This document shows, in pieces, positions 29,880-59,619 of a DNA stretch of 64,000 nt. Under the pieces are notes generated by a model. The model saw only the letters and a program-made list of their open reading frames with translations. It had not been told where the DNA came from and made no database searches. Source of the DNA: Spartinivicinus ruber (GTDB lineage Bacteria > Pseudomonadota > Gammaproteobacteria > Pseudomonadales > Zooshikellaceae); assembly GCF_011009015.1 (NCBI RefSeq), contig NZ_CP048881.1, positions 1 to 64,000 on the forward strand, given 5' to 3'. The position numbers were made by a program, and so were the translations under genes. Position 1 is the first letter of the stretch, and each line of letters opens with the position of its first letter.

Positions 29880-30815
29880 ATGTCACAACATTATTTTGTG
29901 TTGCTAACGAAAGTTGGTCAAGCACAGCTATCCAATGCGCTTGCCATGGGGCGCAAACTCAATGTGTCCAAACTGCAAATAGGGGACGGTGGAGCCGATG
30001 AAGGCAAAGAAACTAACCCCACTGAAAACGATACACAATTAAAGCGCGTGCGTGGTGAGGTGCCGGTTAATGCCGTATTTCAACATGAGAGCAACCCCCA
30101 TTGGGTTGTATTTCAGGTGGTGATTCCTGATGATGTAGGCGGCTTTTACATCACCGAGTTAGGGTTATTTGATGAAGGCGACAACTTAATTGCGATCGGT
30201 AAATACCCCAAAACTTACAAAGCTACTTTACCTGATGGCATATCCACTAGCATGGATTTAGAAGTCATTTGTCAGGTAGGCAATGTTGATCAGGTTAATT
30301 TGCAGATTGACCCGTCTAAAGTGTTAGCCACCATTGATTACACTGAAAAACGTTTTCAAGATCACCTGGCCGCAGCAGACCCACACCCGCAGTATATGCC
30401 TAAAGCTGGTGGTAATTTTACGGGTGAAATTAGTGTATTAGAGAATGCCGTTTATCATGAAGGGCATCAACCCAGCTGGGAAGAAGTAACCAACAAACCC
30501 GATTTATCCCTCGCTAGCCATAACCATGATGAGGTGTATTTTAAACTGGATCACCGGACTAAATCGGTGTGGGTGGATGTCACATCGATTGGACAAACCG
30601 GGGATATTTATAAAGCGTTGGAGTGGGCTAAAACCATTCACCCCGACGAAACTTTTCAAGATAACGACCACATGATTGTGCTGTATTCCAATCAACACGC
30701 CAGAGGTACGGGGAACGGTACTCATTACTGGAGTACCCGTCACATGGTGACATTCTTACGTAGTCGCAGCGGCTGGCATTTATTAGCGAATCAACCGGGT
30801 AGGGAGCCTGCCTAA
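29880..30815 (+). CDS. Tail fibre protein, short form (module 1)
   Basis: 311 residues. The N-terminal part (about 1-150: VGQAQLSNALAMGRKLNVSKLQIGDG, VGGFYITELGLFDEGDNLIAIGKYPKTYK) is the P2 gpH-type baseplate-attachment domain. Then come AADPHPQYMPKAGGNFTG and a distal domain ending NQPGREPA. The last 90 or so residues are almost the same as in the fibre at 49695, although the N-terminal parts are diverged. It lacks the knob-like domain of the second fibre. Confidence 0.82.
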   Translation: MSQHYFVLLTKVGQAQLSNALAMGRKLNVSKLQIGDGGADEGKETNPTENDTQLKRVRGEVPVNAVFQHESNPHWVVFQVVIPDDVGGFYITELGLFDEGDNLIAIGKYPKTYKATLPDGISTSMDLEVICQVGNVDQVNLQIDPSKVLATIDYTEKRFQDHLAAADPHPQYMPKAGGNFTGEISVLENAVYHEGHQPSWEEVTNKPDLSLASHNHDEVYFKLDHRTKSVWVDVTSIGQTGDIYKALEWAKTIHPDETFQDNDHMIVLYSNQHARGTGNGTHYWSTRHMVTFLRSRSGWHLLANQPGREPA

Positions 30816-31348
30816 TGAACGTGATTTTAATTTTTAATAAGTTTACGGATGCCTATTTAGGCTTAACCTACGCCGGGGATGGCATGAGTGTTACCCCTGA
30901 AACCTGTAACCAAGAACACTTTAAATATAAGGTGGTGGATTTAGACCCAGACACTGAGGTATGGGAGGGCGATTATCACACGGGTAAAGTGGTTAAAAGG
31001 GCAAATCGAAAGATTATTATTACTGAGGATGAGCTAAATATTGATTGCCAGACCAAAGTCTTTCGAAAATATCGTTATTACCAGCAATTTAATATTTTAT
31101 ATGACGTGATTGACGCATTAATTGCAGCGAGCAATGTGGATGAAAGTAAGCTGACCCAATATCGAGAAATGCGCGAGTATTTAACCCGGATTCGAGACAA
31201 TAACGACCGTTACAAAGCCGCTTATCAGGCTGTTGATGGGTATGAGTATTGGGATAAAGCTAAGGAAAGAGAAGCGTTAAATAAACAGCTTGAGGGCGGC
31301 CTACATGAAATAATTGGCCGTGACAGTACCACCCATGGCATCATCTAA
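30815..31348 (+). CDS. Fibre-associated protein, probable fibre assembly or chaperone (copy 1)
   Basis: 177 residues beginning MNVILIFNKFTDAYLGLTYAGDGMSV, with an acidic central part and a helical C-terminus (YREMREYLTRIRDNNDRYKAAYQAVDGYEYWDKAK). The start overlaps the fibre stop (TAATG), so the two are translationally coupled, as tail fibre assembly chaperones usually are. It differs from the copy at 51002 at only a few positions. No firm family match by eye. Confidence 0.55.
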   Translation: MNVILIFNKFTDAYLGLTYAGDGMSVTPETCNQEHFKYKVVDLDPDTEVWEGDYHTGKVVKRANRKIIITEDELNIDCQTKVFRKYRYYQQFNILYDVIDALIAASNVDESKLTQYREMREYLTRIRDNNDRYKAAYQAVDGYEYWDKAKEREALNKQLEGGLHEIIGRDSTTHGII

Positions 31349-31820
31349 ACCCTATTTGGCTATAGACGACGTTAATAATATACGTGATGCCGTCACTCAA
31401 ATAGATCAAGCCTACTGGCGAGACCGCTCAACCCATAAACCCAACCTTGGGATAGACGGCAGTATAGGCCGTTATTACTCCTGTGGTCGTATTTCATGCC
31501 CGGAGCCGTTGAGAAGCCAAATTGATGCCATTGCACCCGCGTTAGCCCCCTATGAACTGGAAGACTGGACAATCAACTGGATGCCAAAGGGCGGCTTTAT
31601 TCCGCCCCATATTGATAATGAAGGCTATCTGGCCTTTGCTGTCTTATCACTACAGTCTGAAAGTGGCGCGTTTATTTGGTATAGAGACAACCAATTAACC
31701 CAGCCAGTTGAGATTCCAGACCAGGCAGGGCAGTTAATAACCCTTGATAACATCACAACGATTCATTCTGTCGCTACCGCATTAACAGACCGTTATACCC
31801 TGATTTTTTTATACAAATAA
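31335..31820 (+). CDS. 2OG-Fe(II) oxygenase-like protein in the fibre cassette (copy 1)
   Basis: 161 residues from ATG 31335, overlapping the previous gene by 14 bp. The C-terminal half reads as a double-stranded beta-helix with the metal triad H92-x-D94 (IPPHIDNEG) and H144 (TIHSVA), then R153 for 2-oxoglutarate (DRYTLIFLY). All four residues are kept in the second copy (51522). Known relatives hydroxylate Pro, Lys or Asp of proteins. A fibre or receptor-binding substrate is my inference from location. Confidence 0.65.
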   Translation: MASSKPYLAIDDVNNIRDAVTQIDQAYWRDRSTHKPNLGIDGSIGRYYSCGRISCPEPLRSQIDAIAPALAPYELEDWTINWMPKGGFIPPHIDNEGYLAFAVLSLQSESGAFIWYRDNQLTQPVEIPDQAGQLITLDNITTIHSVATALTDRYTLIFLYK

Positions 31821-31826
31821 TTATTC

Positions 31827-32312
31827 ATGACAACCATTATTCCTAATTTACTGACAAAGGCGCAGTGTGCTGCCCTGTTGCTTGCCGCTAAAAAAGAACT
31901 CGCCCACTTTACTAAAAGTGAAGGGGTTTACCGACGCATAGGCCAAAACGGTACAAAAGCGCTATCAACTTACCGCACCTTAAAATATTGGCAGTTTTCG
32001 CCAGAACTAAAGCAGTTATTTAATGAGTCATTACCCGACACTATCACCTCGCAGTTTAATGAAGCGTGGTTTTTATATTTTCCCAAGCAAGGGTTTTTAG
32101 ACAAATACCAGTCAGGCAAGCGGCTATTCAATTGCTTATCCATCCCGTTAAACAGTGGTGGCACGTTTGTGATTGATGCCGTTGAACAGTCCAATAACGC
32201 GGGAGATGGCTATTTATTTTCATTAGCCGATAAGCATCAAGTGCCTAAAACGACTAAAGCCGATATGTACCTTTGCTTTTTATTTTCCAATCATATCCAG
32301 GTAACTAATTAA
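31827..32312 (+). CDS. Degenerate relative of the 2OG oxygenase, fibre cassette (copy 1)
   Basis: 161 residues. The second half (KQGFLDKYQSGKRLFNCLSIPLNSGG ... FSLADKHQVPKTTKADMYLCFLFS) follows the same strand order as the neighbouring oxygenase-like protein. H137 matches the distal His, but the HxD is replaced (FLDKYQ) and the Arg is a Met. It is probably not an enzyme and could be a structural or chaperone partner. The gene lies 6 bp after the oxygenase gene and 1 bp before the sheath gene. Confidence 0.5.
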   Translation: MTTIIPNLLTKAQCAALLLAAKKELAHFTKSEGVYRRIGQNGTKALSTYRTLKYWQFSPELKQLFNESLPDTITSQFNEAWFLYFPKQGFLDKYQSGKRLFNCLSIPLNSGGTFVIDAVEQSNNAGDGYLFSLADKHQVPKTTKADMYLCFLFSNHIQVTN

Positions 32313-40380: not shown

Positions 40381-43300
40381 TTAAAGTTCGAGTAATAACT
40401 GAGCTTCTTTACTGTCTTCTGATATATTCAAGTCTGATTGACTGTCTCTCCAAAAGAGCTGTTTTACATGCTTCTCCAGAATCTGCGCCATAGCCTCCAC
40501 GTCAATTTTTCCGTTACTTTTCTTAAAGCTATAACGGCCTGTAAATAGCATGTGCGTCCAAGCAATGGGCGATACTCGGATAAATTCATCAATAGCCTTT
40601 TGAGACGCACCATTGGCTAACATTTTCTCATGCACTGAGTTCAGGATCATGCTGTTATATGCAATGATGCAATTGGCAACTAGCCTAGCAGCATGGGCAC
40701 TGATGCGATTTTCGACAATTTTTTTGCCTTGGAATACGCCTTTGTAGGTTTTTCTGATGTTGTTTTGTAGCTGATGATAAGCTTCAGTTCGGTTTCTTGC
40801 GGTTCGAATTGCTTTTCGGAGTTGCATGTCATCAATCAGGTTAAGCACATGGATACTCTTAAAAATAGTGTTATATTCAAACAGTGCGGCTTTTAACCTG
40901 GCGTAGCGTGAATGGGAGTTGAGCTTTCGAATGATATTGCTTTGGGTGTTTTCTTGCATTATCAGGGACAATAATACCCGCATCACACCCCGCCGTTGAG
41001 AACGAATGCGTTCAACGTTAATAACTCCTTTAGGCTTGATAACGCTAGTATCGTAATCTAAGGGTTGAGCAGCATATAAATTGTCAGCAGCTTCCCGTAC
41101 ATTTTTAATACTAGGGACATAATCTACATCAATAGAGTCCAGCGCTACAAAGTTCAGCTTGTTTAGTGAGTGGTTGTCACCAGTCACCATGTGAATATCA
41201 ATATCAGTTTTATTGTTGTATATCATGTCGTAAAGTGAGTGGCCTTCATACTCATTCAAACCGATGTTTTTTGCATTCACAGCAACGTAATTAGCGATCA
41301 GTGTATAGAGGGATATACCTCGACCTTTACCTAGGTATTTTCTGGAATAGCGTGATTGAATAGTGCTATCAGTAGTCATAAATTTTTGCCCATCAGCGTC
41401 AGCCAGCACCTTTTCATCCATTAAATTCCACTGTTTAAAAATCGGCAGCAAATGAATGTAGTTACTGACAATATCATTAGCTGCACACAGTGTATCGATA
41501 CGAATAAAATCCTCCCGAGTTGATCGCAACTGATTAAGCTCTAAGTCTGACATGTCCGCCATTTTTAAAGCACCAAACCCAAAGGCTTCCGATAATAAGC
41601 AAGCGTTTATTGCCTGAGGCAGTGGTTTTTTCCGCTTGGCATAGCGGTCTTTCATGTGGGTAAATCCGTTCCACATACCAATTCGATCGCCAATGAACAT
41701 CACGATATTGGCTATTTCAGCTTTGGGAAGGTTTTTGAAGAATGCATCGTCCAGCTTCTCAGTGCTGTCATGTAGTAGGCTCCAGTGTTGCAACCCAGTT
41801 TTGGTTTCCCTAATGCTAAATCCAGGATTATTATTTTCTTGGATATTGCAGGTAGTTCGCTCCCAAGCATCATTGAGTTCTTGAAGTACATCATCAAGTC
41901 GTTGATCGCAATAAATTGGTATTTTGAGATAGCCAAAATCTGCAGCGATCTTTTCTACGTTGTCTACCAGCTTGTCATCAATTAAGTCATTATCGATATC
42001 GCAATAGGAAATACTGTCATTGCAGTATAATCTGCCCCGATCAATTTCATGATAAATTTTCTGGTAAATAAAAAATTCGAAGAGGTATGGATCAATATGG
42101 GTATCGGTTGGCTTTCGCTTCAAGTATTTAACCATGCTCTTCGGCACAGTAAATCCAAGATCATCGTAAATCTTCAAGTCTGATGGGCTTTTCCCTCTGG
42201 CGTAATGTGATTTCAACACGTCAATCAACCCGCCAATATAGCTGTTGTCTTTGTAGTATTCGAACGTCACTGTCGTGAAAATAGGGCGAAGGTACAGTGA
42301 AAAAAGCCGAGATGATTTAGCGTAGTATTCCCATAAAGCAGCTTTTTTATCGAAGGATTTGCCATCCAGAAATTCGGCCAAAGCCGAAAATTGCTCTTTG
42401 GGTAAGATACTGTAGGCCACCTCATTTAACTCTTCTTGAGTCATACTCGAACTTCGAGCTGGAAACCACTTCAGGAATTTAGCCAGTTTTGGAAAATTAG
42501 TGACGATACTAGAGCTGTGTTCCATTTGAGCTATCGAAGCGTAGGCTTTACCTGCATCCATGATCGCTCGGGTATGATAGTTAAAACTAACTATCAGGTT
42601 GTCTATTATTTGCTGATAACGGTGAAAAGCAAAACAGAGGGTGTGCAACCACTGCTGAGGTTGACTCAGCCTTCTTAATCGAGACGCTGTGTATTGCTCA
42701 GCAATATCAGCATAATAACGAACCGCATTTTTTGATAGATTTAGTAAAGGAATAAATCTTTTGGCAAAGGTATACAGTTTCTCGATGCGCAAGGCTTTGT
42801 CCACTTCTGTTTTGACTGCTGTGTATTGAAAGTCCTTTTGATCAGCGCGGATAATGTTAAGTGTAGTAATACCATCATCCCGATAAATCAGGTCAGCAAG
42901 CTGATTACTCATTGACGTAGGTATTGATGCAATGATGGTATTTAATCGATTTTCCTCATCAGAAAATGCTCGACTGAAAATATCCTGAAGTGTCGTATAG
43001 GAAGGTATAATAATTTTTTGGTGATCAAAGTAGGCTAATAGCTGGCGGAAGGCACTATGCCCTTTAGGATAGTAATGCAGTAAATCACCAACATGAGCTT
43101 GTATTTCAGGTGTAAAATCCGATGTCCAATTGCGATAGCTGAATAAATAAAGAATCGCCTGGCGTTGAATTCGAACATAGTCACGAGAAATACGCCCAGT
43201 GAACATTTTCGAGACTGGTCTACTGTAATAGGTGTTTACGATAAACTGGACATCGTTTTTGACTTCATCAAAGGTGAAATTGAAGAATTGCTGTTTAGCT

Positions 43301-43488
43301 TTGAAATACCCTAGTTGAAGTATAAAATATACACATGTTTTTGTGTTGGCATACTGGGCCAACACTTGTTTCTCTGACTCACTTAGTGAAAAATATAACT
43401 TTTGTTCATGCGTATTAAATATTGGCCGTACATAAAGCTCTTCGACTTCCGAGCGGGATAACAGGTGGATGCGTTTAGTGTCTTCCAT
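40381..43488 (-). CDS. tnpA: Tn3-family transposase TnpA
   Basis: 1035 residues from the second of two Met codons. The N-terminus (LLSRSEVEELYVRPIFNTHEQKLYFSLSESE) is the DUF4158 domain of Tn3-family transposases. The catalytic C-terminal half includes ADADGQKFMTTDSTIQSRYSRKYLGKGRG (first Asp), MVTGDNHSLNKL (second Asp region) and VENRISAHAARLVANCIIAYNS (Glu). It looks intact and full length, so the element may still be mobile. It drives replicative transposition. Confidence 0.92.
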   Translation of the reverse strand: MEDTKRIHLLSRSEVEELYVRPIFNTHEQKLYFSLSESEKQVLAQYANTKTCVYFILQLGYFKAKQQFFNFTFDEVKNDVQFIVNTYYSRPVSKMFTGRISRDYVRIQRQAILYLFSYRNWTSDFTPEIQAHVGDLLHYYPKGHSAFRQLLAYFDHQKIIIPSYTTLQDIFSRAFSDEENRLNTIIASIPTSMSNQLADLIYRDDGITTLNIIRADQKDFQYTAVKTEVDKALRIEKLYTFAKRFIPLLNLSKNAVRYYADIAEQYTASRLRRLSQPQQWLHTLCFAFHRYQQIIDNLIVSFNYHTRAIMDAGKAYASIAQMEHSSSIVTNFPKLAKFLKWFPARSSSMTQEELNEVAYSILPKEQFSALAEFLDGKSFDKKAALWEYYAKSSRLFSLYLRPIFTTVTFEYYKDNSYIGGLIDVLKSHYARGKSPSDLKIYDDLGFTVPKSMVKYLKRKPTDTHIDPYLFEFFIYQKIYHEIDRGRLYCNDSISYCDIDNDLIDDKLVDNVEKIAADFGYLKIPIYCDQRLDDVLQELNDAWERTTCNIQENNNPGFSIRETKTGLQHWSLLHDSTEKLDDAFFKNLPKAEIANIVMFIGDRIGMWNGFTHMKDRYAKRKKPLPQAINACLLSEAFGFGALKMADMSDLELNQLRSTREDFIRIDTLCAANDIVSNYIHLLPIFKQWNLMDEKVLADADGQKFMTTDSTIQSRYSRKYLGKGRGISLYTLIANYVAVNAKNIGLNEYEGHSLYDMIYNNKTDIDIHMVTGDNHSLNKLNFVALDSIDVDYVPSIKNVREAADNLYAAQPLDYDTSVIKPKGVINVERIRSQRRGVMRVLLSLIMQENTQSNIIRKLNSHSRYARLKAALFEYNTIFKSIHVLNLIDDMQLRKAIRTARNRTEAYHQLQNNIRKTYKGVFQGKKIVENRISAHAARLVANCIIAYNSMILNSVHEKMLANGASQKAIDEFIRVSPIAWTHMLFTGRYSFKKSNGKIDVEAMAQILEKHVKQLFWRDSQSDLNISEDSKEAQLLLEL

Positions 43489-43678
43489 CACAAGTAACTA
43501 TTTTACTCCTACCCACAAGGGCCACTGGTACTTTAGCTGAAGCTGTCGGGAAACAGTTGTTTTCCGGTCGGCACAACATTTAGAAAAAAATTACTCTTTT
43601 TGTATGCTAAGAAATGTACGGAAAACCCTGTCGATATCATATACTATACGGAAATCATAAACTATGGGTTTTCCGCAT
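43489..43678. promoter_or_regulatory. Probable res site and divergent promoters of the transposon
   Basis: The gap between the divergent tnpA and tnpR genes contains inverted GGAAAACCC ... GGGTTTTCC (43620-43672) and an internal ACGGAAA repeat, as expected for resolvase-binding subsites. Both genes must be started from here, so the resolvase probably also represses them. Confidence 0.6.
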
Positions 43679-44269
43679 ATGCTTGTAGGCTACATGCGCG
43701 TATCATCTGACTCTGATCGCCAAAACACTGATCTACAACGCGATGCGTTGCTGGCGGCTGGCGTAGATGAGCGGTTTCTGTTCGAAGACCATGCTTCTGG
43801 TGTTAAAGATGATCGACCTGGGTTATCAAAAGCCCTGGCATTTGTAAATCCTGGCGATGTACTGATCGTTTGGAAGCTTGACCGGCTTGGTCGATCGTTG
43901 TCGCACCTCTTGACTATCATTAACACGTTACAAGAGCGAAAGGTCTCCTTTCGTTCTTTGACTGAGGGAATGGATACCACCACGGCATCTGGTGAGTTGC
44001 TATTCCAAGTGTTTGGCGCACTGGCACAGTACGAGCGCAGCTTGATACGCGAGCGTGTCATTGCTGGTTTGGCGGCAGCTAAGCGGCGTGGACGTGTCGG
44101 CGGGCGACCACTGGCTATCACAGGAGAAAAACTAGAGGCCATTATTACTGCTCTAGATAGTGGTATGTCCAAGGCAGCTGTCTGTAGAAACTTCGGCGTT
44201 AAGCGGACTACGCTCATCGATACGCTTGCCCGTGTCGGTTGGCCAGACAACAATGGTTCAAAAAAGTGA
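43679..44269 (+). CDS. tnpR: Serine resolvase TnpR
   Basis: 196 residues from ATG 43679. Catalytic Ser lies in YMRVSSDSDRQNTDLQ, and Arg residues in WKLDRLGRS and YERSLIRERVIAGLAAAKRRGRVGGRP. The C-terminal HTH is MSKAAVCRNFGVKRTTLIDTL. It resolves cointegrates made by TnpA at res. Confidence 0.92.
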   Translation: MLVGYMRVSSDSDRQNTDLQRDALLAAGVDERFLFEDHASGVKDDRPGLSKALAFVNPGDVLIVWKLDRLGRSLSHLLTIINTLQERKVSFRSLTEGMDTTTASGELLFQVFGALAQYERSLIRERVIAGLAAAKRRGRVGGRPLAITGEKLEAIITALDSGMSKAAVCRNFGVKRTTLIDTLARVGWPDNNGSKK

Positions 44270-44386
44270 ATACCAAACCCTTTTGTCTGACTTAGGCTAC
44301 AGGAAATAATTCGAGGGTTTACTGCCGAGCTGTCATTACCAGTCTGTACGCTAAATTTTACTGCATCCTAAGATTATTATTTACTA

Positions 44387-44421
44387 ACTCGTCATTTTCG
44401 AGGGTTCTTCCACTGGCCCCC
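44387..44421 (-). repeat. Right terminal inverted repeat of the Tn3 element
   Basis: Complement of the left end; the last bases GGCCCCC abut the truncated decoration gene. The 117 bp between tnpR and this repeat show no gene. Confidence 0.9.
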
Positions 44422-44423
44422 TA

Positions 44424-44618
44424 GTGAATGCACAAGGCGCGTTTGTGAAGGTCGATGGTTCGGAAGACCCCATCGGCGTAGTCGTAGGGCCGCGTACTAT
44501 TTTAGATACCTATGCCATTGTGATTAAAAAAGGGCTGGCGTTTCCCAAAGGGATGAGTGCAGCCAATCAGGAAAAAATGATTGAAAAACTCTACAAGCAG
44601 GGGATTAAAACCATTTAA
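44424..44618 (+). pseudogene. Truncated head decoration protein (module 2), 5' end lost at the transposon
   Basis: 64 residues open from just outside the transposon end. DGSEDPIGVVVG, AIVIKKGLAFPKGMSAANQEKMIEKLYKQGI follows the pattern of the C-terminal half of the decoration protein at 24257. It directly precedes a capsid gene, as D does in module 1. The missing N-terminal half, and all of terminase, portal and protease expected further left, are absent. A GTG at 44424 exists but no ribosome site. Confidence 0.65.
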
Positions 44619-44681
44619 TTATTTTCCTGCCTTTTCCCCTTCAATCATTACATTATTTTTTACTATTGGATTTATTATTTT

Positions 44682-45698
44682 ATGTTTCAAATGAATAACC
44701 CATTTGACGACCCGTCGTTTAGTATGGCATCAATGACGGCGGCGATTAACTTATTGCCGTCAATGCCTTCCCGCGCCGGAGCATTTTTTACCAAAACCAA
44801 GCCAGTAAGCACCCGCACTATTTTGGTAGAAGAAAGAAGCGGTGTATTAGAGTTGCTACAAACGCAAGAACTAGGCTCAACCAGCCAAACCCGGCGCCCT
44901 GGCAAGCGCAAAATCAGGAGCTTTGTGATTCCGCATATTCCGTTGGATACCAGCATTACCGCCGCTGATTATCAAGGGCTGCGCGGATTTGGTACGAATC
45001 GACTGCAAGCCTTATCGCAATTAGTCACCGAAAACCTGCAAGGCCACCGTGATAGCCATGAAATTACAAAACAGTATTTGTGTATGGGGGCGCTTAAAGG
45101 ACAAATTCTAGATGGTGATGGTACCTTGCTGTATGACTTATTCCGCGAGTTTGGTATTCAAAAGAAAATCATTCACTTTGCATTAGACAACAAAGACACC
45201 AGCGTACCCGCTAAGTGTCGTGAGCTAAAGCGGTATTTAGAGCAAACGCTAATGGGTGAAAGCATGTCTAAGGTACAGGTGGAGATTAGCCCTGAATTTT
45301 TTGAAAAACTGATTGCCCATGCGTCAGTAAAAGAAATTTACTTAAACCATGCGGCGGCTGTCACTAAATTAGGGGGCGATCCTCGCGATAACTTCCCTAT
45401 TGGTGGTGTCACTTTCCGAGAAAATACCGAGCAGGCGTTACGTAAAGATGGTTCCGTGTATCGGTTTATTGATGAGGAAAAAGGGCTAGCTATTCCAGTT
45501 GGCACCCGAAATACGTTTTTCATGGCCTATGCGCCCGCTGACTTTAATGAAACTGCTAATACATTAGGCAAGCCTTACTATGCCAAAATGGCGCCCCGTA
45601 AATACAACCGAGGCATGGACTTACACTCACAATGTAACCCGCTGCCTATGTGTGCACGCCCTGGCATTTTGGTAGAAGTCGATGCAGGAGCAGGCTAA
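44682..45698 (+). CDS. Major capsid protein, lambda gpE family (module 2)
   Basis: 338 residues. Matches to the family include TRTILVEERSGVLELL, RRPGKRKIRSFVIPHIPLDT, FGTNRLQALSQLVTENLQGHRDSHEITKQY and the C-terminal TLGKPYYAKMAPRKYNRGMDLHSQCNPLPMC. It is clearly related to the gene at 25061 but diverged, so the two come from different phages rather than a recent duplication. Intact. Confidence 0.9.
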   Translation: MFQMNNPFDDPSFSMASMTAAINLLPSMPSRAGAFFTKTKPVSTRTILVEERSGVLELLQTQELGSTSQTRRPGKRKIRSFVIPHIPLDTSITAADYQGLRGFGTNRLQALSQLVTENLQGHRDSHEITKQYLCMGALKGQILDGDGTLLYDLFREFGIQKKIIHFALDNKDTSVPAKCRELKRYLEQTLMGESMSKVQVEISPEFFEKLIAHASVKEIYLNHAAAVTKLGGDPRDNFPIGGVTFRENTEQALRKDGSVYRFIDEEKGLAIPVGTRNTFFMAYAPADFNETANTLGKPYYAKMAPRKYNRGMDLHSQCNPLPMCARPGILVEVDAGAG

Positions 45699-46053
45699 CG
45701 CTTTTAAGGTGTTGCTAGAAATGTGGGGGGTAACAGCCCATTACACAACACCTGACAACCAGCACGGCACTATACGGGTGTTTTGGCATGAGGCAGACAT
45801 CACCCAAACCCCAACCCGAAAAAATGCCAATGCTCAATTGATTAACCAACAAAGCTGTATTTATGCAGCAGTCGATGCATTAGCCCCATTGCCCGCTGGC
45901 ACTCTGATTACCCTCAAAAACACCACCTATCGAATGCAGCAACCGATTAAAACCCGATGCATTGCCATGGCACCGATTGTTTTTAATAGCAAGGAGGCGC
46001 CAGCGAATGATTTTGGTAATTTTTTAAATGAGCGGATTTACTCTACAAATTGA
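45682..46053 (+). CDS. Head-tail connector-type protein (module 2)
   Basis: 123 residues, overlapping the capsid end by 17 bp. Beta-rich (GTIRVFWHEADI, GTLITLKNTTYRMQQPI). It holds the same place as the gene at 26062 but with little sequence likeness. FII/stopper role inferred from order. Confidence 0.5.
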   Translation: MQEQANAFKVLLEMWGVTAHYTTPDNQHGTIRVFWHEADITQTPTRKNANAQLINQQSCIYAAVDALAPLPAGTLITLKNTTYRMQQPIKTRCIAMAPIVFNSKEAPANDFGNFLNERIYSTN

Positions 46054-46624
46054 TTTAAGAGAATCAACAGGCCAATTAATTAACAACCTGGCATTCACTG
46101 AAGACATGATCAACCAAGCGGTTAGGCGAGCGCTTAAACGCACAGGCGTGTGGTTTCGGACTCACACCAAACGAGCCATAGGCCGCGAGTTGGGTATTGC
46201 ACAGAAGGCGTTAAACCGCCGTTACCGTGTCACCGTTAGCCGAAATAAACCCACTTTATCCATTTGGGTCGGGGTATTGGCCATTGCCGCCCATAAGACA
46301 GGTGACCCACGACAGAACGCGGCAGGGGTACAGGTGCAAGAACAATACGATGGGGCCTTTGCGGCCAATATGTTTGGTAATGGCGAGCGGGTTTATATCC
46401 GCACCGCTGTTAATGCCGAGCAAGGCCACGTCACCGTCGCTAAAACCGGCCAAAAACTGGTTAATCAAAACCGCGTCCACCGCCACCGCTTCCCGGTTGA
46501 AGTGGTAGGAATGGAAATTAGTGATAGTAGTCTGGCTATTTTGGAGCGTTACGAAAAGCTGGTAAACAAACGTTATAAACGTTTTTTGCAGCACGAAATT
46601 AATTACATTATTAATTATGCCTAA
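46028..46624 (+). CDS. Minor tail protein Z-like (module 2)
   Basis: 198 residues. MINQAVRRALKRTGVWFRTHTKRAIGRELGIAQKALNRRYRV and LAILERYEKLVNKRYKRFLQHEINYI align with the protein at 26396. Overlaps both neighbours, as in module 1. Confidence 0.75.
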   Translation: MSGFTLQIDLRESTGQLINNLAFTEDMINQAVRRALKRTGVWFRTHTKRAIGRELGIAQKALNRRYRVTVSRNKPTLSIWVGVLAIAAHKTGDPRQNAAGVQVQEQYDGAFAANMFGNGERVYIRTAVNAEQGHVTVAKTGQKLVNQNRVHRHRFPVEVVGMEISDSSLAILERYEKLVNKRYKRFLQHEINYIINYA

Positions 46625-47114
46625 AACAATTAATCAAATTTCTGATTTTTATTATGCTGTCGTGGAGGGATTAAAACCGCATTTACATGAAGCCATAAAA
46701 ATCGAAAACTTTTTTGAATTTGGTGAGGCGGCTATTCATACGCATCAATTAATGGTGTTTGTGGAATTAGCCGAAATTAACCCAGCCCCACCTTCACCCG
46801 ATGGCCGACATGGGCAGCAAGTCGGTGTCATACTCCATTGTTTTGCTAGCCAGGCATTACCCCATGCCAATGTCAAAGCGATGGATTTAGCCTCAGCCAT
46901 TGAGCGTGTCTTATCTAATCCTAATCCCTGGCACTTAACACCTGTCGTATTGCCACCTGAGCAAGTCGTGTGTGAGCCGGGCTTTTTTAAGCCCGGTAGT
47001 CAAGGGTTTGAGTCTTGGCAAATTGCTTTTACACAGACGGTGTATTTAGGTGAACCGGACCCGGTGTTTTTCGATCATCACTACCCGGAGGCGACTAATG
47101 TTCGGATTCAATAG
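46617..47114 (+). CDS. Tail terminator/completion protein, Mu gp37-like (module 2)
   Basis: 165 residues, same outline as the protein at 26976: ISDFYYAVVEGLKPHLHE, LMVFVELAEINPAP, FFKPGSQGFESWQIAFTQTVYLG. Overlaps the spike gene by 17 bp. Confidence 0.6.
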   Translation: MPKTINQISDFYYAVVEGLKPHLHEAIKIENFFEFGEAAIHTHQLMVFVELAEINPAPPSPDGRHGQQVGVILHCFASQALPHANVKAMDLASAIERVLSNPNPWHLTPVVLPPEQVVCEPGFFKPGSQGFESWQIAFTQTVYLGEPDPVFFDHHYPEATNVRIQ

Positions 47115-47706
47115 CCAGCATGACGCGATTAACGGGCTGTTAGATGAAGCAGAAGACATCAAGCGCCGTTTAAATGGCGTGGTGCAAATCGGTGTGGTTG
47201 AAGTGGTGGAACCGGCGAAAGCACAAGTCAAAGTGCGCCATGGTGACAACCTGACACCCCTTGTGCCGTGGATAACCCTGGCAGCCGGTGGGGTAAAAGT
47301 CTATCGCTGCCCCAGCGTGGGCGAGCAATGCTTGTTGTTGAATTTTGGTGGTGGTGACAATGGCTCGATGACAGTGGCGCTGCCAGGTGTCTTTAGCCAG
47401 GCCAACCCACAACCGACAACGGACCCAGACGCCCACACAGTCCTGTATCCCAACGGTAGCCGCATTACTTACCATCATGGCCAAGACCGGCTCAGCATCG
47501 AGCAGACGGCGGGAGAGGTCTATATAAAATCACCCACCAAAATCACCTTAGATACCCCCTTACTGCATTGTACTGGCGATATTAAAGCCGATGGCGACAT
47601 TATGGACCACACCAACAGTATGCAGGGGGATCGGGATATTTATAACAGCCATACACACGATGTGTCGGGCCACAGTAAAGCCGTACCGACGGGAGAAACC
47701 CAGTGA
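47098..47706 (+). CDS. Baseplate spike protein V (module 2)
   Basis: 202 residues from ATG 47098, with a gagg site upstream; the open frame extends back inside the preceding gene. OB-fold (GVVEVVEPAKAQVKVRHGD), a short beta-helix and an apex nearly identical to that of module 1 (NSHTHDVSGHSKAVPT). The H-x-H is the probable iron site. Confidence 0.88.
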   Translation: MFGFNSQHDAINGLLDEAEDIKRRLNGVVQIGVVEVVEPAKAQVKVRHGDNLTPLVPWITLAAGGVKVYRCPSVGEQCLLLNFGGGDNGSMTVALPGVFSQANPQPTTDPDAHTVLYPNGSRITYHHGQDRLSIEQTAGEVYIKSPTKITLDTPLLHCTGDIKADGDIMDHTNSMQGDRDIYNSHTHDVSGHSKAVPTGETQ

Positions 47707-48038
47707 TAGGCATTGATCGAGTCACAGGCAAGACAATTACAGGTGAAACCCAACTCATTAGTCGTATTCAACAAGTGATTACCACACCGATTGGTGGGCG
47801 ATTAAAACGCCGTGCGTTTGGTTCCCGAGTGCCGGAATTAATGGGGCAATTACAAACCCCGCAAAATGCCATGCTGGCACAAATGTATATTCTGGAAGCC
47901 CTCAAAAATCCGGCGAATGATGTACAAGACTTTACGCCTAAGCGTTGCCAGGTGATGGCGGGTGAACAGGGGTTTATTGCCGTATTAACCGGACAATGGG
48001 AGGAAAAAAATACAACGTTAGAAGTAGTAATTGAATGA
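47703..48038 (+). CDS. Baseplate wedge protein W, gp25-like (module 2)
   Basis: 111 residues with a GTG start overlapping the V stop (GTGA). ETQLISRIQQVITTPIGGRLKRRAFGSRVPELM is the gp25 signature, more canonical than in module 1. Overlaps J by 4 bp. Confidence 0.87.
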   Translation: MIGIDRVTGKTITGETQLISRIQQVITTPIGGRLKRRAFGSRVPELMGQLQTPQNAMLAQMYILEALKNPANDVQDFTPKRCQVMAGEQGFIAVLTGQWEEKNTTLEVVIE

Positions 48039-49069
48039 TTATTCCTGGTCAAAATCAGCTGTCATTACCTGAAGCACTGCAAGTGCCGGACTATGAACAG
48101 CTGCTAACGCAATTAAAACAAACAACTATTCGCGAAGTGGCTAAACAAGATAAAACCCAGGCGGATGCTTTAGCCGTCACCTTTGAAAATAACGCTGAAA
48201 TTCTCACCAAAATGCTACAAAGTCAGGTGTATGTGTTACAGCAACACATTCGCCATATAAACGCCCAAGCCATCCAAATGTTTGCTATGTATGCGACAGG
48301 GGATAATTTGGATTTGGTGGCCAGTCAATTGGGATTAGAACGCCAGGTCATTGAGCCAGGTGATTCTGAAGCCTTTCCGCCCAAGCCCCCCGTCATGGAA
48401 AATGACGAATCATTAAGGCTACGCTATTTTTTAGCCCCTTATGCGTTCTCAACCGCTGGGCCACAAAAGGCGTATGTTTATCACGGCTTAACGCTGGGCG
48501 AGCAACCGGAAATCAGTGTTAAAAAACGTTCGGATACCGAATTAATTTTACATTATCAATTTCCACGCAATGGTTTGTCTGCCCAGGTGAAAGATGCCAC
48601 GGCGATTAATCCCGAGCCGGGCAAAGTGACCGTCACGCTGTTAGCTTATGACCAAGCCAAATTAGAAAACACCACCGCCGCCGATAAGCGGGAAGCGTTG
48701 CAAACTCAACTGGATGAACTCAAGACAGCCGCTGTTCATTATTTTAATCGTGAGGACATCACGCCAACGACGGATCATGTGACCGTACAGCTGGCGGAGC
48801 TAGTGCCGTATGACATTGAGGCGGTTTGTTATATCTACAAAGGGCCAGACGCCAAAATTACCCAGCAACAAGCCGAAGCCGCTTTACAAGATTATGCAGA
48901 AACGCAATTGCGGTTAGCGGCGATTATCGATATAGGCCAGATATACCACGCCTTACACGAAGTCGGCGCCAGCCGTGTGGATCTCAATCAACCCATTGAA
49001 CGGCTCATCACCGCCCCACATCAAGCGCCGGTGTGCCGTTCGATCAATGTACAAGTTAAAACCATGTGA
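48035..49069 (+). CDS. Baseplate wedge protein J (module 2)
   Basis: 344 residues, about 60 longer than its module 1 counterpart. GDNLDLVASQLGLERQVIEPGD, DDESLRLRYFLAPYAFSTAGPQKAYVYHGL and the C-terminal half match the family. The extra length is mainly in the N-terminal third and an acidic insert near ENTTAADKREALQTQLDELK. It overlaps I by 4 bp. Confidence 0.87.
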   Translation: MIIPGQNQLSLPEALQVPDYEQLLTQLKQTTIREVAKQDKTQADALAVTFENNAEILTKMLQSQVYVLQQHIRHINAQAIQMFAMYATGDNLDLVASQLGLERQVIEPGDSEAFPPKPPVMENDESLRLRYFLAPYAFSTAGPQKAYVYHGLTLGEQPEISVKKRSDTELILHYQFPRNGLSAQVKDATAINPEPGKVTVTLLAYDQAKLENTTAADKREALQTQLDELKTAAVHYFNREDITPTTDHVTVQLAELVPYDIEAVCYIYKGPDAKITQQQAEAALQDYAETQLRLAAIIDIGQIYHALHEVGASRVDLNQPIERLITAPHQAPVCRSINVQVKTM

Positions 49070-49698
49070 GCATTAAACACTACAGTACCTTACCTGATAA
49101 TCAATCAGCCTTAGAACGTGCTTTAGAATTAGGCTTTCAGCAACTGCTAGACGACATTACCAGCCCTTATCCCAACCTAAAAAATCCAGTTAATACCCCC
49201 GAGCATTTGTTGCCACACTTAGCCCAAGAGCGGGGCGTATCTGAATGGAAAACCACCGCCCCAGTGGCTGAGAAGCGGCGAACCGTGGCGGATATGTGGC
49301 CGATACGACGCCAGGCGGGTACTACCCAGGCGATTAAACAAGCCGTCAGTAGCTTAGGTTATGAGTGTAGTGTGTTGCCCTGGTATCAAAGCGACAGTGA
49401 ACCATACACCTTTGATTTACTGGTATCGCTGGAAAAAAAAGGGTTGTCGCAAGATGTTGAGCAGCGGATAACTGACCGGCTGATTGATGCGGCCAGTCTT
49501 CGCGATAATTATCAAATTAATTACTCGCAACCTGTCGAAATTGGCATGAAAAAAGGGGGCGCACTGGAAACATGGGAAGCCATTAAAGTGCAGCCGTATC
49601 AGCCTAATCAATTAAGCACGATCCATAAAACCTGTTATGCCGTTGGGTTTGCCCAACTGGAAAAAATTACTTTATTTATTAGACACCCTGAAGAATGA
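49066..49698 (+). CDS. Tail protein I (module 2)
   Basis: 210 residues starting with GTG 49066. STLPDNQSALERALELGFQQL, LLPHLAQERGVSEWKTTAPVAEKRRTV and RRQAGTTQAIKQAVSSLGYE match P2 gpI. Same length as in module 1 but diverged. Overlaps the fibre gene by 4 bp. Confidence 0.87.
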   Translation: MSIKHYSTLPDNQSALERALELGFQQLLDDITSPYPNLKNPVNTPEHLLPHLAQERGVSEWKTTAPVAEKRRTVADMWPIRRQAGTTQAIKQAVSSLGYECSVLPWYQSDSEPYTFDLLVSLEKKGLSQDVEQRITDRLIDAASLRDNYQINYSQPVEIGMKKGGALETWEAIKVQPYQPNQLSTIHKTCYAVGFAQLEKITLFIRHPEE

Positions 49699-51002
49699 GC
49701 GAATATTTAACAGCCATTACTAAAACGGGCTTAGCCAAAGAAGCAAAAGCCCGACGAGATAATACCAAAATTAAATTAGTCGATTTTGCCATCGGTGATG
49801 GTGAATTACCGACGGATATTGCCGCACTGGAACAGCGAACGGAGTTAGTGAATCAGCAATATCGCGCCAAAATTAATGGCGTCCATATTGACCCGGAAGC
49901 GCCTGAAACCATCCGAATTAATGCATTAATTCCCCATGAGGTGGGCGGCTGGTTTATTCGGGAGTGTGGCATTTATGATTCCGACGGGGATTTATACGCC
50001 ATCGCCAATGTACCACCGACCTATAAAAATGGGCCTGATTCGGGCGCTAAAAAAGAAATTGGCTTAAACGTGTATATTGCGACGGCCAACACCCAGCAAA
50101 TTGATTTAACCATTGATCCCGATTCAGTCATTGCCACCCGTGAAATGCTGGTGGTGAGCCTGAAACAACATAAAGCCGAAGATGACCCACACCCGCAGTA
50201 TGTGCAGCAAAGCCAGTTAGGCAAAGCGCCGGGTGACGTGTCGGTGGTGGGGGATTTTGGATTAGGCCAGCTGGAAAATAAAACGGCGGCTAACGTAGAT
50301 GAGTTAATCACCTTTGGCTTTTATCGTATCGATCAGGCAGCAGGCACATTGCCTACCGGGATTGGCGTGGGCTCAGAAATGGCCACGTTTTATGTGGAGG
50401 TACTGCCCCAGGGCGACCAGCATGTTATGCAACGGTTGCAGCATACTAGCACGACAAGAACCTTTGAGCGGCGCCGTGTGAATGGTGAGTGGTTAGCCTG
50501 GCGGGAAGTGGTGTTTGTTGACGCCATGCAAAAAGCTTTTTCCAACCACGAAGCCGAGCCAGACCCGCACCCGCAGTATATTCAAAAAACCGGCGGTAAT
50601 TTTACCGGCGAAATTAATGTGTTAGATAATGCGGTTTATCACGAAGGCCACAAACCCAGTTGGGAAGAAGTGACCGATAAACCGGCTGATTACCCACCCG
50701 CTACACATAACCATGATGATGTGTATTTTAAGCTGGATCACCGCACGAAATCGGTGTGGGTCGATGTGACTTCAATTGGTCAAACCGGGGATATTTACAC
50801 GGCCTTGAACTGGGCTAAAACCATTCACCCAGACGATACCTTTCAAGATAACGACCACATGATTGTGTTGTATTCCAATCAACACGCCAGGGGTACAGGT
50901 AATGGTACGCATTACTGGAATACCCGTCATATGGTGACCTTTTTACGCAGTCGTAGCGGCTGGCATTTATTAGCGAATCAACCAGGACGGGAGCCTGCCT
51001 AA
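49695..51002 (+). CDS. Tail fibre protein, long form with knob-like domain (module 2)
   Basis: 435 residues. The N-terminal attachment domain (VDFAIGDGELPTD, GGWFIRECGIYDSDGDLYAIANVPPTYK) matches module 1 in type. Between two copies of DPHPQY (about residues 164 and 289) lies an insert of about 120 residues including FGFYRIDQAAGTLPTGIG ... RRRVNGEWLAWREVV, a pattern of pyocin-knob domains. The distal part is almost identical to the module 1 fibre. The insert probably gives this tail a different receptor contact. Confidence 0.82.
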   Translation: MSEYLTAITKTGLAKEAKARRDNTKIKLVDFAIGDGELPTDIAALEQRTELVNQQYRAKINGVHIDPEAPETIRINALIPHEVGGWFIRECGIYDSDGDLYAIANVPPTYKNGPDSGAKKEIGLNVYIATANTQQIDLTIDPDSVIATREMLVVSLKQHKAEDDPHPQYVQQSQLGKAPGDVSVVGDFGLGQLENKTAANVDELITFGFYRIDQAAGTLPTGIGVGSEMATFYVEVLPQGDQHVMQRLQHTSTTRTFERRRVNGEWLAWREVVFVDAMQKAFSNHEAEPDPHPQYIQKTGGNFTGEINVLDNAVYHEGHKPSWEEVTDKPADYPPATHNHDDVYFKLDHRTKSVWVDVTSIGQTGDIYTALNWAKTIHPDDTFQDNDHMIVLYSNQHARGTGNGTHYWNTRHMVTFLRSRSGWHLLANQPGREPA

Positions 51003-51535
51003 TGAACGTGATTTTAATTTTTAATAAGTTTACTGATGCCTATTTAGGTTTAACCTACGCCGGGGATGGCATGAGTGTTACCCCTGAAACCTGTAACCAA
51101 GAACATTTTAAATATAAGGTGGTAGATTTAGACCCAGACACTGAAGTATGGGAGGGTAACTATCACACGGGTAAAGTGGTTAAAAGAGCAAATCGAAAGA
51201 TTATTATTACCGAAGATGAATTAAATATTGATTGCCAGACTAAAGTCTTTCGAAAATATCGATATTACCAGCAATTTAATATTTTATATGACGTGATCGA
51301 CGCATTAATTGCAGCGAGTAATGTTGATGAAAGTCAGCTGACAAAGTACCGGGAAATGCGCGAGTATTTAACCCGGATTCGAGACAATAACGACCGTTAC
51401 AAAGCCGCTTATCAGGCCGTTGATGGGTATGAGTATTGGGATAAAGCCAGGGAAAGAGAAGAGTTAAATAAACAGCTTGAGGGCGGCCTACATGAAATGA
51501 TTGGCCGTGACAATAACACCCATGGTCTCATCTAA
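51002..51535 (+). CDS. Fibre-associated protein, probable fibre assembly or chaperone (copy 2)
   Basis: 177 residues, differing from the copy at 30815 at few sites (for example EGNYHTG for EGDYHTG, and the C-terminal NNTHGLI). Coupled to the fibre stop by TAATG. Confidence 0.55.
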   Translation: MNVILIFNKFTDAYLGLTYAGDGMSVTPETCNQEHFKYKVVDLDPDTEVWEGNYHTGKVVKRANRKIIITEDELNIDCQTKVFRKYRYYQQFNILYDVIDALIAASNVDESQLTKYREMREYLTRIRDNNDRYKAAYQAVDGYEYWDKAREREELNKQLEGGLHEMIGRDNNTHGLI

Positions 51536-52007
51536 AACTTATCTTCCAGCAGATAAAGTCAATAGTTTGCGTGACTTGATCACGCAAATAGATCAAGCCT
51601 ACTGGCGGGATCGCTCAACCCATAAGCCGAACCTTGGGATAGACGGCAGTATAGGCCGTTATTACTCCTGTGGTCATATTTCATGCCCTGAACCCATTCG
51701 AAAAAAAATTGATGCCATTGCACCCGCGTTAGCGCCCTATGAACTGGAAGACTGGGCAATCAACTGGATGCCAAAAGGCGGTTTTATTCCGCCGCATATC
51801 GACAATGAGGGCTACCTGGCTTTTGCTGTTTTGTCACTACAGTCTGACAGTGGCGCGTTTATTTGGTATCGAGACAACCAATTAACCCAGCCAGTTGAGA
51901 TTCCAGACCAAGCCGGGCAGTTAATAACCCTTGATAACATCACAACGATTCATTCTGTCGCTACCGCATTAACAGACCGTTATACCCTGATTTTTTTATA
52001 CAAATAA
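51522..52007 (+). CDS. 2OG-Fe(II) oxygenase-like protein in the fibre cassette (copy 2)
   Basis: 161 residues from ATG 51522. The N-terminal 20 residues differ most from copy 1 (SSKTYLPADKVNSLRDLI), but HID, the distal His and the Arg are all kept. Conservation of the metal site in both copies argues for a working enzyme. Confidence 0.65.
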   Translation: MVSSKTYLPADKVNSLRDLITQIDQAYWRDRSTHKPNLGIDGSIGRYYSCGHISCPEPIRKKIDAIAPALAPYELEDWAINWMPKGGFIPPHIDNEGYLAFAVLSLQSDSGAFIWYRDNQLTQPVEIPDQAGQLITLDNITTIHSVATALTDRYTLIFLYK

Positions 52008-52013
52008 TTATTC

Positions 52014-52505
52014 ATGACAACCATTATTCCTAATTTACTGACAAAGGCGCAGTGTTCTGCCCTGTTGCTTGCCGCTAAAAAAGAACTCGCCCGATTTACT
52101 AAAAGCGAAGGGGTTTATCGGCGCATAGGCCAAAACGGTACAAAAGCGTTATCAACTTACCGCACCTTAAAATATTGGCAGTTTTCGCCAGAACTAAAGC
52201 AGCTATTTAATGAGTCATTACCCGACACTGTCACCTCGCAGTTTAATGAGGCGTGGTTTTTATATTTTCCCAAGCAAGGGTTTTTAGACGAATACCAGTC
52301 AGGTAAGCGGCTATTTAATTGCTTATCCATCCCATTAAACAGTGGTGGCACATTTGTGATTGATGCCGTTGAGCACACCAATAACACAGGTGATGGCTAT
52401 TTATTTTCGTTAGCCGATCAACATCAGGTGCCAGAGACGACACAAGCCGACCTCTACCTTTGCTTTTTATTTTCCAACCATATTCAGGTGGCTAATTCAT
52501 GTTGA
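52014..52505 (+). CDS. Degenerate relative of the 2OG oxygenase, fibre cassette (copy 2)
   Basis: 163 residues. Same HxD loss (FLDEYQ) as copy 1 and the same kept His, so the loss predates the copying of the cassette. It ends two residues later (ANSC) and overlaps the next small gene by 7 bp. Confidence 0.5.
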   Translation: MTTIIPNLLTKAQCSALLLAAKKELARFTKSEGVYRRIGQNGTKALSTYRTLKYWQFSPELKQLFNESLPDTVTSQFNEAWFLYFPKQGFLDEYQSGKRLFNCLSIPLNSGGTFVIDAVEHTNNTGDGYLFSLADQHQVPETTQADLYLCFLFSNHIQVANSC

Positions 52506-52669
52506 AAAAATACCGCGTCAATGCGCCATTCCCCTGGCGTAAAGGGTGGACCATGGCGAATGAAACCCTGGATTTATCCGACTGTGAAGCACAACAGTTG
52601 TTAAGAACCGGGCGCATTGAGCCAGCTAATCAGAAAAAAAAGTCACGAAAAACTGAGGATAATCATTAA
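52499..52669 (+). CDS. Small Mu gp38-like protein before the sheath gene
   Basis: 56 residues from ATG 52499: MLKKYRVNAPFPWRKGWTM, ETLDLSDCEAQQLLRTGRIEPA, and a Lys-rich end. The pattern (a short beta hairpin, then DLSD-x-EA-x-x-L-x-x-G-x-I) is seen in many small proteins placed before myovirus sheath genes. Overlaps both neighbours (7 bp and TAATG). No equivalent exists in module 1, where the sheath gene follows the cassette at once. Confidence 0.65.
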   Translation: MLKKYRVNAPFPWRKGWTMANETLDLSDCEAQQLLRTGRIEPANQKKKSRKTEDNH

Positions 52670-53838: not shown

Positions 53839-54344
53839 AGCAATACCAACGCGCATTAAGAAGCCGAAACGCGCAATTTAATGGCGTACCGATCTTTTTT
53901 AAATTAGAAGAATTTAGCCCGCCTGCGATCAAGAAAACCACCGAAGAGGTACGGGGTGGGCGACTGATGGCGGATAAAATCATGACTGGCTTTGAGGCCA
54001 TGGAATGGACCGTCAAGCTTGCTGGGGCAGGCATTGAGGAGCTGAACGCCTACGGGGTGCATAATGATGAACCCTTTACATTAAGCGTGTGGGAGTCCTA
54101 CAGCGACGAGCACAACAACGCCTTTAAAATAGAATACATCATCCGTGGCCAAATCTTAGAGGTTGAGCAGGAAGGTGTCACCATGGGCAGTAAACCCAGC
54201 CATACCGTAAAAGGCTCAGCCCGGTATTTTAAACAAACCGAAAATAATCAAACCATTTACGAAATTGATATTAATCGCGGTATTTACGATTTAGGCAAAG
54301 GCAATATCAACGCGATTCATAACCAACACGTTAACCTGAATTAA
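53835..54344 (+). CDS. Tail tube protein FII (module 2)
   Basis: 169 residues, same length as in module 1. RSRNAQFNGVPIFFKLEEFSPPAIKKTTEEVRGGRLMADKIMTGFEAMEWTVKLAGAG follows the FII pattern. One base overlaps the next start. Confidence 0.9.
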   Translation: MKQYQRALRSRNAQFNGVPIFFKLEEFSPPAIKKTTEEVRGGRLMADKIMTGFEAMEWTVKLAGAGIEELNAYGVHNDEPFTLSVWESYSDEHNNAFKIEYIIRGQILEVEQEGVTMGSKPSHTVKGSARYFKQTENNQTIYEIDINRGIYDLGKGNINAIHNQHVNLN

Positions 54345-54931: not shown

Positions 54932-55041
54932 GAACCGTTATCCCACCGATTTACCATATATCACCCAATGAGTTAGATGATTACGGCCTTGATGAGCTGC
55001 ACACGTTCTATCAAGTCGCCTACCGTCGTCTGTATCACTAG
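54910..55041 (+). CDS. Frameshift extension of the tail chaperone (module 2) and its slippery site
   Basis: After a -1 slip at A AAA AAG (zero frame AAA AAG), the frame reads DFRKLRTVIPPIYHISPNELDDYGLDELHTFYQVAYRRLYH and stops at 55041, 2 bp before the tape measure start. The ELDDYGLDELHTFYQ stretch occupies the place of the EL-x-x-W motif of E'. A AAA AAG is the classic bacterial -1 heptamer, as in dnaX. No start codon with a ribosome site exists for a separate gene. Confidence 0.78.
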   Translation, partial: KKDFRKLRTVIPPIYHISPNELDDYGLDELHTFYQVAYRRLYH

Positions 55042-55043
55042 TT

Positions 55044-59204: not shown

Positions 59205-59268
59205 ATTGAAAACAAAATACGATAACTGTGTTATTTTTATTTAAATTCAAATTAATTGATATAAAATA

Positions 59269-59580: not shown

Positions 59581-59619
59581 TTAAAAAATGTTCAAGGCAA
59601 GGGATTTACAGTAAAAAAG

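Follow-up and report, generated by a model that had tools for sequence, protein, structure and literature searches.

A predicted 2-oxoglutarate oxygenase and its metal-less twin tied to a phage fibre tip: a candidate fibre-maturation cassette of P2-like prophages and phiKZ-type phages

The proteins gpG of phage P2, Tfa of lambda and gp38 of T4 are fibre-assembly proteins, and each is encoded directly behind the fibre gene. Mimivirus L230 is a viral collagen hydroxylase with a collagen-like viral substrate. The prolyl hydroxylase of P. putida modifies EF-Tu, and in PHD2 nine residues separate the distal histidine from the arginine. The AlkB nucleic-acid dioxygenases possess a nucleotide-recognition lid and a C-terminal motif of the RxNxTFR type. 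We know of no earlier example of the enzymatic maturation of a phage fibre tip, and of no pseudo-oxygenase partner or fibre-tip linkage for L230 or for vCPH of PBCV-1.

The locus described here encodes three proteins, denoted X, P1 and P2, behind a tail fibre. The cassette resembles the genes for gpG, Tfa and gp38 in that it is found directly behind the fibre gene and moves with the C-terminal part of the fibre. It differs from them in that a Caudo_TAP match is absent and one of the three proteins contains an intact oxygenase site. P1 is similar to PHD2 (EGLN1), the P. putida prolyl hydroxylase and PiuC in its predicted fold and its HxD...H...R arrangement, and the spacing of nine residues from the distal His to the Arg is that of PHD2. 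Unlike these enzymes, P1 is a protein of 161 aa with 10-18% identity in the listed matches, the window protein scores below the Pfam cut-off, and the gene is accompanied by those of a pseudoenzyme and a fibre. As with PBCV-1 vCPH and mimivirus L230, the predicted hydroxylase is encoded by a virus; vCPH and L230, in contrast, are from viruses of eukaryotes and have a collagen-type substrate. The genes for gp136-137-138 of phiKZ, gp155-156-157 of PhiPA3 and gp221-222-223 of 201phi2-1 constitute the same cassette, homologous gene by gene.

The window, which is the whole 64-kb stretch of Spartinivicinus ruber NZ_CP048881.1 that was analyzed, contains two P2-like prophages, A and B. The genes of prophage A appear in the order Phage_base_V, sheath initiator (assigned with a score under the Pfam cut-off), Baseplate_J, Tail_P2_I, fibre, X, P1, P2, tail sheath and tube FII. 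The series fibre, X, P1 and P2 is repeated in prophage B at 49695-52505. The coordinates are presented in Table 1. P1 starts with the ATG at 31335 and overlaps the 3' end of X. The slot behind the fibre in prophage A is the place of the fibre-assembly gene G in phage P2. A search of the S. ruber genome for PF02413 (Tfa, Caudo_TAP) provided 0 matches, with a positive E. coli control. The sheath gene follows directly after P2 in prophage A, whereas P2 of prophage B is followed by a small frame at 52501-52668 (+) before the next tail gene. A 1036-aa frame between the two prophages, at 40381-43491 (-), looks by sight like a Tn3-type transposase.

Table 1. Fibre genes and X-P1-P2 cassettes of prophages A and B in the 64-kb window
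Feature	Position	Strand	Basis or remark
Tail fibre A, 311 aa	29880..30815	+	PF12571 N-terminal domain, Pfam E 1.5e-42; between Tail_P2_I and sheath genes
Fibre A C-terminal tip domain (unnamed)	30552..30812	+	Alignments; no Pfam/PDB family
Fibre A GNG Asn279	codon 30714-30716	+	Read from sequence
X, 177 aa, phrog_13209 relative, phiKZ gp136 homologue	30815..31348	+	Held-out profile E 7e-33
P1, 161 aa, predicted 2OG-Fe(II) oxygenase, phiKZ gp137 homologue	31335..31820	+	Held-out profile E 1e-18
P2, 161 aa, predicted pseudo-oxygenase paralogue of P1, phiKZ gp138 homologue	31827..32312	+	Held-out profile E 4e-23
Unit common to A and B: fibre C-terminal part, X, P1 and P2	30346..32310	+	blastn, 90.1% to 50531-52497
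Tail fibre B, 435 aa	49695..51002	+	Pfam search, alignments
Fibre B tip	50739-50999	+	GNG Asn403, codon 50901-50903
X, copy B	51002..51535	+	
P1, copy B	51522..52007	+	Protein 91% identical to copy A
P2, copy B	52014..52505	+	Protein 93% identical to copy A

All of the 24 viral loci identified by a P1 pattern scan (23 distinct P1 proteins, since L021 repeats L020) contain the genes X, P1 and P2 in this sequence. The order is the same in phiKZ, 201phi2-1, PhiPA3 and an Otagovirus (Astolliot), and in all four of the named genomes (Marinobacterium litorale, a Bathymodiolus symbiont, Aliikangiella marina and Aestuariicella albida). These sets overlap: judged by size and name, the contigs L014, L022, L024 and L026 resemble Noxifer, Phabio, PhiPA3 and Psa21, respectively, as deposited, and L037 resembles L009. 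When the SL2 proteins were used as queries against 50,697 phage records, matches were obtained in 71 records for X, 72 for P1 and 72 for P2, with 60 of each listed. All 72 records matched by P1 and by P2 are named as Pseudomonas phages; the matched records include the three gene sets of phiKZ, PhiPA3 and 201phi2-1 given above, as well as Viktualia and Astolliot. The oxygenase-like gene and its relative had been noticed inside the fibre cassette in the first-pass annotation, and the pairing of P1 with P2 holds; the third gene, X, and the deposited phiKZ-type copies had been overlooked.

Profiles constructed without the P2-like group detect X, P1 and P2 of the window with the E values listed in Table 1, and the reverse held-out profiles also match (X 4e-13 to 2e-28, best P1 1e-18, best P2 3e-18). 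Because both held-out directions match, the gene-by-gene identity with the window trio is independent of mixed profiles. A scan of viral contigs using the window P2 alone confirmed no relative. The pairwise identities of X, P1 and P2 covary over 28 loci with r values of 0.87-0.95, down to identities of 15-19%. In a class sample of 369 genomes, with scoring of the 9 to 14 top candidates per genome, P1 was detected in S. ruber alone, and the cassette is therefore rare. Frame breaks appear in some copies: both X and P2 are interrupted in L007, where part of X is found on the opposite strand, X is split in L009/L037, and P2 is split in L012.

The P1 protein of the window contains H-I-D, the distal His and the Arg, as had been read from the sequence in the first-pass annotation. 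In an alignment of 34 P1 sequences, which includes close relatives, the first His, the Asp and the Arg are invariant, and 33 sequences have the distal His; the viral loci were collected by two patterns, one of them containing HID, and the HxD count is favored to that extent. All four catalytic residues are found in 33 of the 34 proteins. The sole exception is the P1 of L012, which has Arg in place of the distal His and adjoins a broken P2. The identity within the P1 family is as low as 18%, and the C-terminus is mostly RYxxIxLY.

The AlphaFold2 model of P1, obtained from an alignment of 24 proteins, has a pLDDT of 95.3 and a pTM of 0.90. The model was compared with the PDB using Foldseek, and the matches include 3dkq, PHD2, the P. 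putida prolyl hydroxylase, PBCV-1 vCPH and PiuC, with E values of 8.5e-9 to 1.5e-7 and a probability of 1.00. The best 50 matches listed are all oxygenases at the identities of 10-18% noted above, with ALKBH2 at rank 28, and the fold neighbors among the matches listed are mostly prolyl hydroxylases. The predicted structure thus has the double-stranded beta-helix fold of the 2OG-Fe(II) oxygenase superfamily, and P1 is classed as a 2OG oxygenase by its predicted fold together with its residues. The window P1 scores 13.7 bits against a Pfam gathering cut-off of 27, while PF13640 (2OG-FeII_Oxy_3) is matched by 11 of the 24 proteins of the family at E up to 0.01; the missed cut-off is a matter of the profile threshold and not a biochemical feature. 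PADLOC provided a weak generic 2OG match for the window and nothing else. In a sequence search of the PDB, the P1 profile matched ALKBH8 weakly (E 8.6e-5) over 40 residues, and the searches with P2, X, the tip and an SL2 fibre gave no useful match.

P2 is a paralogue of P1 (profile-profile probability 96.9, E 1.4e-10) in which the catalytic positions are largely replaced. In an alignment of 32 sequences, including close relatives, the distal His is retained in 32 and the Arg and the first His in 0, and hence the residue set of an active oxygenase is absent. This alignment was not pattern-selected, and the P2 pieces of L007 and L012 were excluded from it. The column of the first His is occupied by W (20), Y (8), F (3) or C (1), and that of the Asp by G (11), A (8), D (5), S (4), N (2), P (1) or T (1). 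The earlier statement that P2 keeps only the His is correct for the catalytic positions; P2 has conserved residues of its own, namely R37, G39, S47, Y49, G89 and the D of GFLD, each in 32 of 32, and N41 in 26 of 32. The Asp of GFLD was considered as the Asp of HxD and rejected, as the combined alignment places W, Y, F or C on the first-His column. The residue states of P1 and P2 were confirmed to be the same in both cassette copies, as had been proposed.

The dN/dS values between copies A and B are 0.17 for P1, 0.13 for P2 and 0.08 for X. The value for P2 means that this gene is under selection and is not decaying; a chance frame or a decaying pseudogene is ruled out by this value and by the conserved residues. 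The AlphaFold2 model of P2 (alignment of 23 proteins) has a pLDDT of 91.6 and a pTM of 0.87. Its top Foldseek match in the PDB is the P. putida prolyl hydroxylase in complex with EF-Tu, and vCPH and ALKBH5 are also matched. Both models therefore fold like 2OG oxygenases, as the fold check suggested with the initial annotation required, and P2 is described as a predicted pseudo-oxygenase, with the 2OG oxygenase fold but neither the metal triad nor the Arg. Among viral models, that of PhiPA3 gp157 was found (TM 0.86), followed by a Psa21 protein named for an 'Fe2OG dioxygenase domain'. Another viral model in the same search is named 'DNA endonuclease V'.

The third protein, X, has the C-terminal motif GG[LIV]HE, in which H164 and E165 are invariant. 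No Caudo_TAP domain was detected in X by a Pfam-type search, and it is thus not assigned to the Tfa/gp38 family; X may still act in the manner of a fibre-assembly protein of that type.

The deposited labels of the phiKZ-type cassette are mostly 'hypothetical protein' or 'DNA endonuclease' among the matches listed, and '2OG-Fe II oxygenase' appears on 1 of the 60 records listed. P1 is assigned to PHROG 2297, which is labeled 'DNA endonuclease'. An endonuclease identity for P1 and the phiKZ gp137 family was rejected on the basis of the 50 listed fold matches to oxygenases and the presence of the oxygenase residues. The oxygenase identity of P1 is already given in single database entries; the cassette and its link to a fibre are undescribed in the literature found. 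Neither hydroxylation of a phage fibre, nor this cassette, nor a function for phiKZ gp136-138 is described in the accessible text of the literature searched, including PMC13282480 and PMC3368898. The accessible portions of PMC2984593 and PMC12774648 consider a possible repair role for phage 2OG proteins or treat them as marine-phage genes. Burkholderia jumbo phage S13 is described, in the portion of PMC11898562 available, with gp80 and gp82 of the 2OG-Fe(II) oxygenase family and a cupin_2 protein, gp70.

Prophage A (18001-39000) was compared with prophage B (43501-60000) using blastn at E up to 1e-5. One long match, the common unit of Table 1, was obtained together with a 116-bp piece of 80% identity. 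The long match begins past the N-terminal domain of the fibre and stops at P2. The DNA identity between the prophages is almost confined to the C-terminal part of the fibre and X-P1-P2, and thus the block moves as one unit.

The co-occurrence of the tip domain and P1 was determined in several samples. Scoring of the 9 to 14 top candidates per genome in 390 genomes of the order detected the tip at E up to 1e-3 in 4 of them. P1 was detected at E up to 1e-15 in these same 4 genomes, adjacent to the tip. The chance of this coincidence is about 1e-9 if the genomes are independent, which they are not quite. In 56 relatives, which overlap with the 390 genomes, tip and P1 appear together in 3, a count that leaves out three weak matches to P1 (L033-L035, E 4e-6 to 7e-4, frames of 219-232 aa without X or P2); with these included, P1 matches are found in 6 of the 56. 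The three proteins were taken for cellular oxygenases. Among seven phage records, the tip is present in 4 of 4 with P1 and in 0 of 3 without P1 (EL, SPN3US and Goslar). The tip was also found in 10 viral contigs, of which 7 contain the cassette, two end inside X (L044 and L047) and one ends inside the tip (L049).

The fibre of L008 matches 79 phage records, and none of the 30 listed extends beyond residue 336 of 416; the L008 tip itself gave no match to the phage records at E up to 1. The gp134-type tip of SL2 matches 48 phage records, all from close relatives of phiKZ as judged by size and name. The co-occurrence of tip and P1, with fibre matches that stop before the tip, ties the enzyme to the tip and not to fibres generally. 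Two weak tip matches were obtained in the 369 genomes of the class sample, again from the best 9 to 14 candidates of each, and neither has X or P1 adjoining. One (G189, E 0.0013) is in a long frame that is not fibre-like, and the other (G351, E 0.0095, or 1.4e-6 when that locus alone is searched) is in a 50-residue frame overlapping another gene. Both were taken for chance matches, although they could be tips without a cassette. The link of the enzyme to the fibre gene, proposed from the window, is stronger than could be seen at that stage, given the 24 of 24 loci, the same 4 of 390 genomes and the shared block.

The gene upstream of X encodes a fibre or short tail protein in the loci with an assignable upstream frame. 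The tip domain corresponds to the last 80-90 residues of the fibre, and searches of Pfam and the PDB found no family for it. The tip profile was derived from the P2-like group, Astolliot with L017 and L018, and L015/L016, and was run over 1025 frames. Its next matches are the tandem sibling fibres of the jumbo phages, with a best E of 3e-6 and most from 1e-4 to 0.03, and the pairwise profile probability for the jumbo and P2-like tips is 30.6; these weak sequence matches hint at a kinship of the two kinds of tip.

In 25 tip representatives of less than 70% identity, an Asn, the following Gly and one Trp are the sole invariant columns (25 of 25), and a Gly precedes the Asn in 23, in a set gathered partly by a GNG-containing profile that favors GNG. 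The motif was therefore recounted on sibling fibres picked by length and position only, two fibres per locus from 15 loci, with the larger gp131/gp216-type fibre outside the reach of the rule. The sequence [GS]NG appears in the last 70 residues of 28 of 30 siblings, 4 of 56 other long frames and 3.5 of 30 shuffled sequences. The corresponding values for [GS]N[GA] are 30 of 30, 5 of 56 and 6.5 of 30. The background of 56 was reached by removal of two of 58 frames, which contain GTGNG, as cassette fibres, and two of the five background matches are large gp216-type fibres that are not siblings under the position rule. Because the siblings are related, no probability is claimed for these counts.

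GNG is present in 15 of 15 non-jumbo cassette fibres, a set in which close relatives were retained and from which L007, a rearranged contig with a wrong upstream-frame assignment, was excluded. A simple account is contradicted by the last jumbo fibre before X, which, though related, has no GNG in its last 60 residues in 14 of 15 loci, and by eye the GNG of the last fibre of L023 is located elsewhere. The looser [GS]N[GA] appears in the last 70 residues of this fibre in 3 of 15 loci, by eye elsewhere in all three. The absence of the motif from its place in the last fibre, while the tandem siblings keep it, suggests a division of tasks among paralogous fibres.

On balance, the tip, X, P1 and P2 appear to form a fibre-maturing unit in which P1 would hydroxylate the tip, perhaps at the Asn, and X and P2 would be non-catalytic. 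Over deep divergence P1 retains its site, P2 lacks it in every copy seen, and both stay beside one fibre domain; most simply, the fibre would be what the three proteins act on. The linkage speaks for a joint function and not for catalysis on the tip. P1 would be an active Fe(II)/2-oxoglutarate protein hydroxylase with the C-terminal tip of the adjoining fibre as its substrate, and the fibre tip is favored over a receptor because the tip domain travels with the enzyme. The likeliest single site would be the conserved Asn in the (G/S)-N-(G/A) turn, modified by beta-hydroxylation, although the Asn-Gly and the Trp could be structural. X and P2 may hold or present the tip, or P2 may form a tip-binding complex with P1, and the trio would act on the fibre before assembly. 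Asn-Gly is prone to deamidation; the modified turn may be stabilized by the prevention of this reaction or be shaped for contact with the receptor. The cassette would then be a fibre-maturation module whose factor is an oxygenase with a pseudoenzyme twin. That at least three kinds of phage (P2-like prophages, Otagoviruses and phiKZ-type giants) hydroxylate a conserved fibre-tip Asn using a dedicated hydroxylase and its pseudoenzyme twin is a tentative proposal, possible rather than probable.

Handling of the tip could fall to X or P2 instead. Hydroxylation by P1 of another fibre residue (Pro, Lys, Arg or His), or of X, is somewhat unlikely; the first half of this alternative overlaps with the preferred reading, as does the likelihood assigned to it. 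The prolyl hydroxylases that predominate among the listed structural neighbors of P1 point to another fibre residue, and the invariant H164 and E165 point to X, whereas only the Asn-Gly and one Trp are invariant in the 25 tips of the GNG-favoring set. It is improbable that the trio are non-catalytic fibre-assembly chaperones, with a 2OG fold that merely binds the tip and a structural or vestigial metal site in P1. The slot of the P2 fibre-assembly gene, the genome without Tfa, the retention by P2 of the fold without the metal site and the divergence of X, P1 and P2 in step are all consistent with chaperones. A vestigial site should decay, however, and the four catalytic residues are retained in 33 of 34 P1 proteins while three are lost in P2.

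A host target for P1, such as the receptor or a factor like EF-Tu, is brought to mind by the top PDB match of P2. This is quite improbable, since in different phage types and hosts the enzyme accompanies a single kind of fibre tip domain, and its gene is among structural genes, phiKZ included. Action of P1 on nucleic acid, as an AlkB-like repair enzyme or as the 'DNA endonuclease' of PHROG 2297, is hardly credible: the PHROG label, the single ALKBH8 profile match and ALKBH2 at fold rank 28 are set against an endonuclease label without fold support and the location of P1 beside a fibre in 24 of 24 viral loci.

Hydroxylation of the fibre tip would provide a joint function for three uncharacterized genes of phiKZ, a model giant phage, and account for their movement together with one fibre tip. 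Were the tip hydroxylated, the phages would rely for receptor binding on an oxygen-using step that annotation and structure prediction of fibres ignore, expression without the cassette would yield wrongly finished fibres, and fibre function would depend on the oxygen, iron and 2-oxoglutarate of the host cell. The 'DNA endonuclease' label on many records is put in question.

The virion annotations of the jumbo phages were also compared. The record of 201phi2-1 names the fibres gp216-220 as virion proteins on the basis of mass spectrometry and has no such note for gp221-223. The phiKZ record describes gp131-135 as tail tip or structural proteins and gives no such description for gp136-138. This is as expected of maturation factors, although the missing mass spectrometry notes for gp221-223 are not proof of their absence from virions. 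The phiKZ gp135 (L055 6491-7882) is the last fibre-like gene before X and a paralogue without the Asn-Gly motif. In the accessible part of PMC10914614, gp135 is reported in 30S ribosomal fractions, which does not fit a pure fibre role.
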